This document shows positions 20,601 to 33,762 of a DNA stretch of 64,000 nt, in pieces. Each line of letters starts with the position of its first letter. Position 1 is the first letter of the stretch. Source of the stretch: Ceratodon purpureus (taxonomy: Eukaryota; Streptophyta; Bryopsida; Pseudoditrichales; Ditrichaceae). Under the pieces are notes generated by a model. The model was not told the DNA's origin, did not search any database, and was given only the letters and a program-made list of their open reading frames with translations. The stretch covers positions 4,389,271 to 4,453,270 of the forward strand of contig CM026432.1 in NCBI GenBank assembly GCA_014871385.1, written 5' to 3'. A program made the position numbers and the translations under genes.

Positions 20601-23600
20601 CTAAGCTTCATGAGGCACTGAACGACACTCTCTGAAGGGGTGACAGCAACAGTAGACGCAACCGAGGACTTCGCAGAGACAAGCACTTCCTCACGATTAT
20701 CATTTGGAATTGGCACTGTCCTCTCCTTGCTCTCATGGATTGCAGTCTTCTCTATGGTCTCATGGATTACACTCTTCTCCTTGCTCTCATGGATTACACT
20801 CTTCTCCTTGCTCTCCTGGATCTCAGTGGTCTCTTCTGCGTTTTCACTATCGGAGTCATCACTCAACTCATAGATTGTTTGAAGACCTGGCTCGGCTTTG
20901 ACCTTCCTCAACAACGGTTCAGGCTCAATGCACACTGTTGTGGACGACCGAGGAGTAAGCAGTTCAGTAGACGCACCTAGCCTAGACTCCGGAACTCCGT
21001 AAACTCTATACTTCCCAGGTTTCAGCACCCAAAACGTTCCAATCTCATTTTGAGTTGACAACTGACCCACTGCATGCGAGAGTCCACCAGTAATGTCGTC
21101 AAGAAACTCCTCTTCTACATGCAGAGAGTCCTCCCGAAACCGAAATCGAAGACTCAGAGTTGTGGAACTTATCATAGCACACCCATCTACACCCAATGGA
21201 AAGGTAATCGGGACAGAGTGCGAGTCAGCACAAAGGTAGGCCATTCCGGGCAGATTAAGTGGCACTCGCAACAATGACCCGAGTTAGCAGAAAGTAAGCG
21301 CAGGAGATTACACATAAACAAATAAGCACAGAAGCATCACAGAAACAATACTGTTCGAAACCTATTAACAATCAAAAGTTCAGAGAGTGAGAAGCATCAT
21401 CATCGTGGCTTTAACTTTAATCATTGCTGAACTGTATCTACCTGTATTTGAATTAATGAGTTGAGAAGTACTATAGCTCTGGACGTGGCGGTCGATTAGG
21501 CTGGCCTAATCACAATACTAATGATAAAGGCTGCGATAACAGAGCCATGACATATTATGACGGCAAACCTACAATCAATAACAGCATCTTGGATAAAATC
21601 AAACAGTGAGAAGTACATTGGAACCATGTACATCTTCATGATGTAGAAGTATCTAATTACTGCACTGCCCACTAATGTATATCAGACTTGGCGGCTGCGC
21701 TTTTTAGATCTCTCACCACTGTTCGTGTCTTTGATACTATTTTCTTCTGGCCCTTCCATGCTCTCAACTGCATAGCATCCACTACTCTTTAGCTTACGTC
21801 CTCTAGGGCGGGGGGTACTTCTTAATAAAAGCCTAGAGTACGTTCCAGGTTTGATGACCCCTACTCTTGCATAGCCATGGGATGCTTTACTTGAATTGCC
21901 CTGGCTGCGCTCAACATTAGCCAGAGCTGGTTGAAGCGACTCACCACAGCCTTTCTCATCCACAGTATGGACGTGATCGATGGGGGCATCTACTTCGTTG
22001 CAGTCAGGAAAGTTGCATTCCGGAACTGGTTCAAAAGGACCTTGGAATTCATCTAAGGACACGCGCTCATCTCCCTCCTGCTGTGAACCTGAAGCTAGGT
22101 GAGTCGAGGACTGGAGCGGGTTGCTATCCATCTCGTCCGAAGCTTACAAGTATCTACACGGGCATGGAAAGTCTGATAGTGAATTCTGATACTGGATGAG
22201 GCCTTCACTTCACTTATATAGAGAATGATAGTACCAAGCGTGGAGTTGCCCTCTTCCAAGATTTGTTTTTTTAAAGTGCGTTACATTGATGGACGCCGCT
22301 AATAGAAGTCGGCGGTTTTTTAATAAGGTGGTTAACATACAGTAAGTTACTGACAGTACGAAAGTTGAACTAACTTTCTGGGTCCAACAATGAAGTCCTA
22401 GATATTAAAATCTTACCACATTAATGTCATAGTGCATTCGAGAAAATTTGAACATTTAGTCTATTCATAGATTGTTGTGTCGAAGGAAGTCATGGATTAA
22501 AAAGAGGCTCTCATACTAGCATTCAGAGAGATGATAACCAGGTCGAGTGCGAAAGCTAAGCTCGAATTTAGTCGGGCAGCTGGAAGAGAGCGACGTCAAG
22601 AGAGGTTACGGAGGTTAGCGTTTAGGGACGGTTTAGGTACGCCATACAACTTGCGTTCAGCAATGGGAAGGAAGGGAGGGAGGTCTAATCAAGCAGGTGT
22701 CAACAAGGAAATGGGTGACGGCGTCGGGTTTGACGATGGAGAGGTTCAGCCAATTAAACTATCGTTTCTAGATGCAGATGGTTCTTCACCTAAGAAACAA
22801 ACTACAAGAGAGGTAAGCCAAAATGATGTCCCCAATTATTATTCTAGTCAGACCATAGATTTTATGATGGAGACTCTAGGTAGTTATCGAGTTGGTGGTG
22901 ATTTACATCCTAAATCTAGGGTTTAGCTTTCGAAAGCACTTGGTGCACCTCGCAGATCCTGTCCCTGTCTCTTCGAACCCTCAAGCACTCTGAATGCTCG
23001 TACGCTCCCACTCATTTTCGTGCCTGCATTCCTCCCTGAACCGTGTCCTATGTTCTCGAATTTACAAGTACCGGAATGAGCAAACCCAATTTGTATCTTC
23101 TGGATTGTTTGCGCAGGAAGGGGGATCACAGTCGAGTGAGTCCTCTTCGGGTCAAGCGAGGGTGCTGCGGCAGAGCAAGTACCCTTCAAGGGGACTGAAA
23201 TCTGTAGCGGAATCCTCTTCCGGTTCGAAGAGTCCGAGGATGGCAGACACGACACCATCATGCGGCGTTGGAGATGAAGATCGGATGCAAGCTGAGCAGG
23301 TAATTCAGCCACCCACACTTCTATTTCTGTTGGGTTGGTGGGGAGCAGTGTTGTAGGATTGTGAGACTTCGAACATTGGAGAAGCGTGGATGAGTCTGCT
23401 CGGCAAGGAACTAACTGTAGGGAGAGTAGAGTTGGCGTCTTGAACTGATAGTAACTCTCTTCTTGTAATCTGCAATTCCGCAAGCGAATGAGATCATCTG
23501 CTCCTGGAGCAATCCGTATTTCTAATTCCATCGTACCTCTAATTCATTCTTTTATTGAATTACATTATGAGACGAGTTGCAGTCTCAAAGATACCAGTAC

Positions 23601-32600: not shown

Positions 32601-33762
32601 GAACCATTGATTCGGAATACTTCGGTTCCTGAAGGCAGCATCGCACAGCATGTCATCTCTGAGGATCCTGAGGGAGAAGTTCCTGTCATGAAGATTGTGA
32701 AGAGATCTCGATTCAAGAAGTGAGTTTAGACTCTTTTTCTCTAGTGTTACCTCTCATATACACGCATTCAATGTAAAGTGGATTTATAAACAACTTGCCA
32801 TTTACATTTGCAGATGCAATAACATGAGGTCTCCCGTGCATCGTCCTTTTTTTTCTGATCCTAATTTCCACCCGAGCCCTCCACAATCTTGGAATCTTCC
32901 ATGTTATGCAAACGATGCAGCTATCCAACTAGCTCGTGGTTCGTACCGTTACTTTAGATCCAGAAATGCACCAAGTAGATCGTTGGAGTTTCTTGATATT
33001 GAAGCCGATGAGTCAGACGACCATCTCTCAGATATGAGCCCCTCCTCAATCACTCTATCGTCCTCTGATCAGTCCGACCTTGAAGAAGAGTGCCGTCTAG
33101 AACGCTCTGTCAATACTTTGAAGGACATTTTGGAAATGTGAGTTAGGGCAGTTAGTGAGTTGATAGAGAACTTGCATGTACTGAAGGGCCTAGCCAAAGC
33201 TCTGTATATGAATTCCCTTAATTCGCAGTTGCATAATATATTTTTTGTTCTTTTCTCCATTCCAGCCATTATCTGCATATATCCTTTCCAGTCGAATTGT
33301 CCATTTTCATTCACATCCCTCCCCCCAAATTTTTTATTTTTACCGTTCCCTTTTTTATTTTTTGTTTATTCCTTCTTCTCGGATCTTTCTTCTTCATTAA
33401 CATCCCATTTTTTTGTTGCTTCAATTTTCATTCCTTTTTTAATATGTCATTTATCCTCTCTACTCGCACCTTCGTTTTTCATTAACATCATTTTTACTTT
33501 TCTTTTTCCATTCCGTCCAATAATTTCACTTATCCCTTCCACTCCAACTATCCACTCTCATTCCTATCCCCGTTATTAGTTTTTTCTTTCCTTTTCTTGC
33601 ATTTCCATTTTGTTATTTTGTATATCCCTTCCATTCGCACTTTTCCTTTTCTTAGACATATGCTTTATTTTCTTTCTAGGTTTTGGCACTCCACCCCCTA
33701 CTTTCATTCATCTTTTCCTCTCCCACTCTACACTGTCATTTCCATCCCCGTTATCATTTTCT

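Follow-up and report, generated by a model that had tools for sequence, protein, structure and literature searches.

A conserved second gene with a predicted ParB/Srx fold and a methyltransferase-like domain in a moss Mutator-like transposon family

Why does a plant DNA transposon carry a gene that joins a ParB-like region to a methyltransferase-like one? The question is raised by a 64,000-nucleotide stretch of the moss Ceratodon purpureus (contig CM026432.1, positions 4,389,271 to 4,453,270), here called the window, in whose coordinates positions are given. An initial annotation, made from the letters alone, proposed that a Mutator-like element (MULE) had captured a phage-type protein for recognizing and modifying its own DNA. 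The ParB-methyltransferase (ParB-MT) gene does lie inside an intact transposon, but "captured" understates the case: it belongs to a family of moss Mutator-like DNA transposons with many copies, in which it is conserved as the second gene.

The gene and its transposon family

Twelve exons on the forward strand (22531-33141) join into 1255 amino acids without a stop, and all 11 introns are GT-AG. The initial annotation was right about this layout, which is kept in sister copies. A spliced aligner written for the analysis recovers exons 3-12 of the window exactly, and 20 sister copies were fetched and aligned from exon 3 onward. Exactly the nine expected introns are found in 12 of the 20, down to 66% amino-acid identity, and on this ground a chain of exons arising by chance was ruled out. 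Among the other eight, some are broken, some extend beyond the stretch that was fetched and some have an extra predicted intron. Neither stop nor frameshift occurs in the aligned part of six copies (L011, L018, L021, which is partial, L023, L025 and L030). Some copies align only in part, being broken or off the fetched stretch (for example, L015, L020, L021, L024, L027 and L028).

The gene is under purifying selection. The ratio of non-synonymous to synonymous substitution rates (dN/dS, Nei-Gojobori) is 0.09-0.13 in eight of ten pairs, three of which have dS above 1; the other two pairs are saturated. For the methyltransferase part, the ratio is 0.08-0.15 in the eight unsaturated pairs.

The genome searched comprises 151 contigs, 362 Mb in total. 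Scoring placed the ParB exon at 118 or more loci with 64-100% identity (out of 3305 first-look candidates), the methyltransferase part gave at least 175 matches (150 candidates scored), and the main exon of the transposase was found at no fewer than 59 loci; these counts are lower bounds, the best candidates alone having been scored. A divergent ParB exon lies within 12 kb of 40 of the 59 transposase loci, within 15 kb of 41 and within 50 kb of 50, leaving nine with none within 50 kb. Since one sister copy matches at 98.7% over 7.7 kb, the family, which is large, also looks recently active.

The gene sits inside a complete transposon at 15063-36235. The terminal inverted repeats are about 73 bp long. 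The left one (15063-15136, forward strand) consists of GGGACGTC and 66 bp, and the right one (36163-36235, reverse strand) has the outer end ATTTCCC; 15071-15136 and 36163-36228 match at 91% over 66 bp. The repeats reach GGGA.../...TCCC ends and are bordered by the 9-bp direct repeat GTCGGTTGG, at 15054-15062 and 36236-36244. The same target is found uninterrupted and free of the element at 2496-2504, where a 97.7% copy of the right flank adjoins it. Because GTCGGTTGG is duplicated and an element-free copy exists, the ends were set at 15063 and 36235. The intact terminal repeats of the initial annotation are thus borne out, and both the 9-bp duplication, within the 8-11 bp expected of a MULE, and the long inverted repeats agree with that class.

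Three further insertions end in the same sequences or close variants of them, with duplications of 9-10 bp at other target sites: ACCCCGTGA on contig C5, ATTTTCTGA on C11 and GTCTGTTCCA on C12, where the copy is divergent. The terminal inverted repeats of a divergent copy match at 92% over 66 bp. A compound copy of 45 kb (C11:7097024-7142080, including L049 and L011) has two ParB-MT genes 24 kb apart within a single pair of ends, which share the duplication ATTTTCTGA. In the window, positions 1-2489 are 100% identical to the element interior at 16094-18582 and join, through a short common CGTT, the element-free target (2486-2530) and the 97.7% copy of the right flank. This junction is a very recent rearrangement or a haplotype or assembly join.

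The transposase consists of two large exons on the reverse strand, divergent from the ParB-MT gene. The main exon is an open frame at 19070-21283, and the C-terminal exon is at 17516-18964. No Pfam family matches the protein, up to an E-value of 10. Its motifs were recognized by eye only: a SWIM-like CxC...CxH pattern, in the C-terminal exon, and DGAQAN...CLFHW. A divergent transposase with a SWIM-like pattern is therefore present, as was claimed, but without the Pfam match, and the term "Mutator-like" rests on the duplication length, the long inverted repeats and these motifs.

Relatives of the protein are found in databases, where they are named "hypothetical protein" at most. A domain-sized methyltransferase query gives 26 (E up to 0.01), among them Ceratodon purpureus P0001, which is 85% identical across 71% of the query, and P0002. 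A profile of the ParB part matches 299 clusters in public genomes and metagenomes at E-values up to 10, of which the best 120 are listed. When amino acids 205-1150 were compared as one long query with 5.8 billion proteins, none of the 7993 candidates scored reached E 0.001; the probable reason is that relatives have been annotated in short pieces, exon by exon.

Domains of the protein

Exon 3 (26795-27435) is predicted to encode a ParB/Srx fold. An AlphaFold model of this exon (amino acids 205-368), compared with PDB structures, has the alpha+beta ParB/Srx fold with a GxxR box. By eye, the boxes MVRP, CDGNHR and MHNIN can be seen, and DGNHR is kept in 118 of the 120 database relatives listed. 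The initial annotation had placed a ParB-like part in the same chain as the methyltransferase-like domain and had named a structure with neither fold as the outcome that would speak against it; the exon 3 model agrees with the former. As support it had asked for separate confident matches to ParB/Srx and to N4/N6 methyltransferases; a predicted fold match and methyltransferase homology were found.

Several results weigh against the ParB assignment. None of the Foldseek E-values of the exon 3 model is below 0.001, the best being 5.5e-3. Pfam finds no ParB in the spliced protein or in six family members, and the PF02195 profile finds none in a whole-genome search, whose control was positive in 11 of 14 genomes. 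An hmmsearch against the PDB detects no ParB, hhalign against 15 ParB domains gives probabilities of at most 0.5%, and PHROG 1033 matches only at E 0.44. An earlier, longer AlphaFold model, of a 339-amino-acid database relative, was poor (predicted local distance difference test, pLDDT, 57.4), and Foldseek matched it to unrelated proteins only. Because it has no recognizable ParB_N profile (PF02195), the protein is classed by fold and not as a canonical ParB. The places of the nucleotide motifs QPR, GERR and ENxQR are occupied, by eye, by MVRP, GNHR and HNIN, which means that the residues for cytidine triphosphate (CTP), QPR, GERR and EN, are partly kept as VRP, GNHR and HN. Since these residues are kept only in part, a CTP switch is hypothetical.

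Sequence comparison shows that the C-terminal domain is a relative of the beta-class amino-methyltransferases, the homology extending across motifs X and I. DpnA structures match the METHYLTRANSFERASE-like domain at E 3e-7, the significant part being motifs X-I only, and phrog_67 matches it at E 1.6e-8. The Pfam family N6_N4_Mtase matches at E 1.8e-5 with 25.3 bits, just below its curated cut-off of 26.7 bits, and a Lactococcus phage methylase shows 25% identity over the whole domain (E 8e-6). The relationship that the initial annotation had recognized is thus supported. A point against it is that the motif IV stretch alone has no significant match to DpnA.

Exon 9 (31433-31780) is part of the domain and holds the site of motif IV. 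Exon 10 (32140-32410) encodes motif X and the start of motif I, exon 11 (32518-32719) the remainder of motif I (DCTAATG|SS) and RHIVALEAD, and exon 12 (32814-33141) ends in the stop codon at 33139-33141. Motif X is preserved, as is the end of motif I. Motif I reads DCT(A/T)(A/S)TG, compared with DPFMGSG in the phage enzyme, and the usual FxGxG is gone. The motif order IV-V-X-I had been described for this protein; motifs IV, X and I are placed as described, but motif IV of the window copy reads DLPEN, not DPPY.

The same replacement is found across the family. The spliced copies read D(L/I/V)PE(G/N) in 13 of 15 readable cases, the other two being DLPKG and DLPVG. A set of exon-9 copies reads D(I/L/V)PEG in 15 of 18, the others being DIPKG, DLPKG and DLPED. 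Of 26 database proteins, the 20 that can be read at this site all have D(I/L/M/V)PEG. The regular expression for motif IV had no match in 5 of the 20 spliced copies, 2 of the 20 exon-9 copies (L061, which reads DLAEGL, and L060, which is unreadable) and 6 of the 26 database proteins; the exon-9 copies L065 and L067 are the same loci as the spliced copies L027 and L023. Wherever the site is readable, the catalytic [DNS]PP[YFW] is absent. A conserved SDPP(T/R/S)SIP stretch about 11 residues downstream was considered as the true motif IV and rejected, as both alignments place DLPEN at motif IV.

In a rotifer N4-cytosine enzyme, changing SPPY to APPA abolishes activity (PMC8885841). Because motif IV is replaced, motif I is changed and this rotifer mutation is inactivating, the domain, although conserved, is probably no longer a methyltransferase; a changed chemistry is possible. 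The initial proposal that the protein modifies DNA is not supported, the catalytic tetrapeptide being replaced in the family.

Exon 1 (22531-22812) is basic and probably disordered, and is followed by exon 2 (23117-23299). Exon 4 (27560-27749) leads from the ParB/Srx-fold domain to a conserved middle region (amino acids 433-755), which starts in exon 5 (28023-28214), continues through exons 6 (29059-29277) and 7 (29421-29656) and ends in exon 8 (30056-30731), where a charged linker follows. No known domain was recognized in the middle region; its one PDB match, a CD-NTase at E 0.23, was regarded as fortuitous. Intron 7 contains an inverted repeat of 42 bp with a 14-bp loop (29885-29982).

Fusions of ParB with N6_N4 methyltransferases occur in phages and bacteria (PMC5512222, PMC12704722). 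Like the moss protein, they have an N-terminal ParB and a C-terminal amino-methyltransferase in one chain, and the phage fusions are the nearest known architecture (PMC12704722). For instance, WCZ55008.1 of Latilactobacillus phage TMW 1.2272 P1, which matches a ParB probe and is annotated as "DNA modification methylase", has 384 amino acids and DPPY. The moss protein, in contrast, has 1255 amino acids and D(I/L)PE, is encoded with introns in a DNA transposon, and has an extra conserved middle region of about 320 amino acids and the charged linker.

A palindrome in the non-coding DNA, and other features of the window

Each of the subfamily representatives selected has the palindrome TCGGNNCCGA in its non-coding DNA. 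The core, 10 bp long or 16 bp with its flanks, contains two CpG sites. From one subfamily to another the core stays the same and the flanks vary (TGYTCGG, TGATCGG, TGCTCGG, GCCTCGG). There are 14 core sites in the window element, compared with none in the 40,327 bp of the window outside it and none in five arbitrary 2-kb stretches. In the 20 sister copies, the non-coding DNA (138,362 bp) contains the core 125 times and the coding DNA (61,638 bp) not once. Eleven other arrangements of its letters occur at most 7 times.

Among 1792 palindrome patterns, TCGGNNCCGA ranks first, with 122 copies in 18 distinct contexts in 10 of 10 representatives; the runner-up is found in 8 of 10, in 7 contexts. 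The ranking counts distinct contexts of patterns with 4-bp half-sites. Its representatives (the window, L013, L017, L018, L020, L023, L025, L028, L029 and L030) were chosen from 21 copies, and L027, which has no core site, is outside the ten. When patterns were ranked by 5-bp half-sites, AT repeats dominated in the window element and in the near-identical L011 and L012; CTCGG-N2-CCGAG comes out on top in L029 and L030.

A longer form, TGYTCGGSSCCGARCA, was counted in the window. Sites with up to 2 mismatches number 19 in the element, none of them in exons, versus 1 in 40 kb outside; with 3 mismatches the counts are 32 and 1. The contrast weakens at 4 mismatches (41 in the element, one of them exonic, versus 7). 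Positions 1-2500 are excluded from the outside counts, because 1-2489 duplicates the element interior. These window counts are post hoc, since the palindrome was first spotted by eye in the window element, and the core counts and pattern ranking are the better tests, although related copies are not independent. With up to 3 mismatches allowed, 2-30 sites are found in each of the 20 sister copies, none of them coding, where Markov means are 0-0.8.

Most sites of the window element are far inside it, in intron 2 (23300-26794), which contains 182-bp and 218-bp tandem arrays and 20 sites at up to 3 mismatches. A 53-bp tandem array of 6.7 units (16930-17285) holds TGYTCGGSSCCGARCA seven times at 0-1 mismatches. 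Three palindrome-like sites lie in intron 5 (28430-28915, at 28430, 28542 and 28900) and two near the right end (34625-34724, at 34625 and 34709). Within the terminal repeats of the window element there is none, allowing up to 4 mismatches. Repeat units vary in sister copies, for instance about 150 bp in L017 and 108 bp in L029.

The core counts are uneven, a point against the reading favoured below: L017, L018, L029 and L030 account for 100 of the 125, fifteen copies have one or two, and the broken copy L027 has no core site. Because fetching started at exon 3, these counts leave out intron 2 and the transposase side, which hold most sites in the window.

Other repeats and genes were seen in the window. 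Between the ParB-MT gene and the right end is a pyrimidine-rich array (33828-34534; 173-bp units, 4.1 copies, 94% matches), adjoined by (TA)27 at 33768-33821. Left of the element, an inverted repeat of 3.3 kb (4767-8069 and 9787-13086) is 99.6% identical, its copies being stepped by 37 bp near their inner ends. A fragment of the Slu7 splicing factor (37967-38317, reverse strand, E 3.9e-27) lies 1.7 kb right of the insertion. A Bestrophin-like protein is encoded at 60779-61984 (Pfam Bestrophin_2, E 2.2e-72), a type that Pfam describes as bacterial or fungal.

Possible roles of the protein

Both ParB sites and methyltransferase sites are often palindromes. The closest functional parallel is VANC, a protein of the Arabidopsis VANDAL elements, which are MULEs. 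VANC binds a short motif that has accumulated in tandem in introns and other non-coding parts of the elements of its family, motif density matters for its localization, and it causes loss of DNA methylation (PMC5735166). Like VANDAL elements (PMC5735166), the moss family has an element-encoded accessory gene and a short motif, repeated in non-coding DNA of the element and often in tandem arrays, that varies between subfamilies. The VANC motif, YAGTATTAY, is not palindromic, whereas the moss site is, and its binding is putative. VANC is not known to have a ParB or methyltransferase domain.

On the bacterial side, ParB, Noc and KorB, with their parS sites, Noc-binding sites (NBS) or operators, likewise combine a ParB fold with repeated palindromes on one replicating unit; the moss protein differs in having no detectable ParB sequence profile and in not keeping all nucleotide-site residues. 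Dinoflagellate and charophyte retrotransposons with DNA methyltransferases are also eukaryotic elements with an acquired DNA-methyltransferase domain (PMC5890265). Theirs are C5-cytosine enzymes, in contrast to a ParB and amino-methyltransferase-like protein with a remodelled site in a DNA transposon.

Because its layout resembles that of VANC, although architecture and site differ, we tentatively favour a self-recognition or anti-silencing factor acting at TCGGNNCCGA, a reading that we hold at somewhat less than even chances. What we infer about binding, nucleotide use and methylation runs as follows. The protein, most likely a dimer, would recognize TCGGNNCCGA palindromes in its own and sister copies. 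It may load there in a nucleotide-dependent, ParB-like way, the box II arginine being kept, and the methyltransferase-derived domain would bind DNA, its catalysis probably lost. It would thereby protect copies from CG methylation and silencing by the host and leave them accessible for transcription and transposition, much as VANC does for VANDAL elements but on a different scaffold of phage or plasmid type. Self-recognition had been proposed initially, and the conserved palindromes, which were not among the evidence for it, support it independently. In a bolder and doubtful form of this proposal, the transposon would run its own ParB/parS-like system: a nucleotide-gated clamp with a ParB fold would load at TCGGNNCCGA and spread along the copy, its non-methylating domain would exclude CG methylation, and protein and palindrome would co-evolve between subfamilies.

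The same gene could instead serve transposition, as a cofactor that helps the transposase to excise the element, capture a target or insert; it might be a nuclease that nicks DNA and depends on nucleoside triphosphates, and the palindromes would be assembly sites. MURB and other second proteins of MULEs are models for such a cofactor. The divergent pairing with the transposase fits it, as do the palindromes within 2.3 kb of the element ends (16938-17256; 34625, 34709) and the DNA nicking reported for the ParB-methylase Bce_0392 of Bacillus cereus (PMC5512222). However, in the window the terminal repeats lack palindromes at up to 4 mismatches and most sites are in intron 2, and array expansion varies between subfamilies, so this role is unlikely, though a serious contender. 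Less likely again, the palindromes may be promoter or enhancer sites of the transposase or a host transcription factor, and the ParB-MT protein may have an unrelated role. This possibility counts against the self-recognition reading, and the arrays do flank the 3' end of the transposase and fill the large intron. A core that is kept while flanks change by subfamily is expected of sites for an element-encoded protein, which would fit the transposase too.

Amino-methyltransferases recognize symmetric sites of the palindrome kind. An active enzyme that marks its own copies, with a non-canonical D-x-P-E methylating adenine or cytosine at the palindrome, would use just such a site and would fit a domain that, under strong purifying selection, has kept motif X and motif I in part. 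It is nonetheless improbable: D(I/L/V/M)PE stands in place of [DNS]PP[YFW] in 13 of 15 spliced, 16 of 18 exon-9 and 20 of 20 database sequences that are readable, the rest being D-x-P, motif I lacks its usual FxGxG, and the rotifer change from SPPY to APPA abolishes N4-cytosine activity (PMC8885841). MULEs also tend to pick up host gene fragments (PMC6446971), as Pack-MULEs do, but a passenger without function for the element is barely credible here and was rejected, given the many loci, the conserved exon layout, a dN/dS near 0.1 and the linkage to the transposase.

An accessory gene on this scaffold in a DNA transposon was not found described in the literature searched. In the table of a MULE survey, second genes or motifs include PMD, FAR1, SET and OTU, and its main text contains neither "methyltransferase" nor "ParB" (PMC6446971). 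The main text of a ParB-fold survey contains neither "transpos" nor "plant" (PMC12704722). The literature searched, subscription papers and preprints aside, revealed no MULE with a ParB or methyltransferase gene.

The family holds methyltransferase-like domains that are under strong selection without the catalytic motif. It also offers a concrete pair for testing, one protein and one palindrome. If the favoured reading is true, a plant transposon would have built a machine for self-recognition or anti-silencing from components of kinds familiar in phages and plasmids, independently of VANC.

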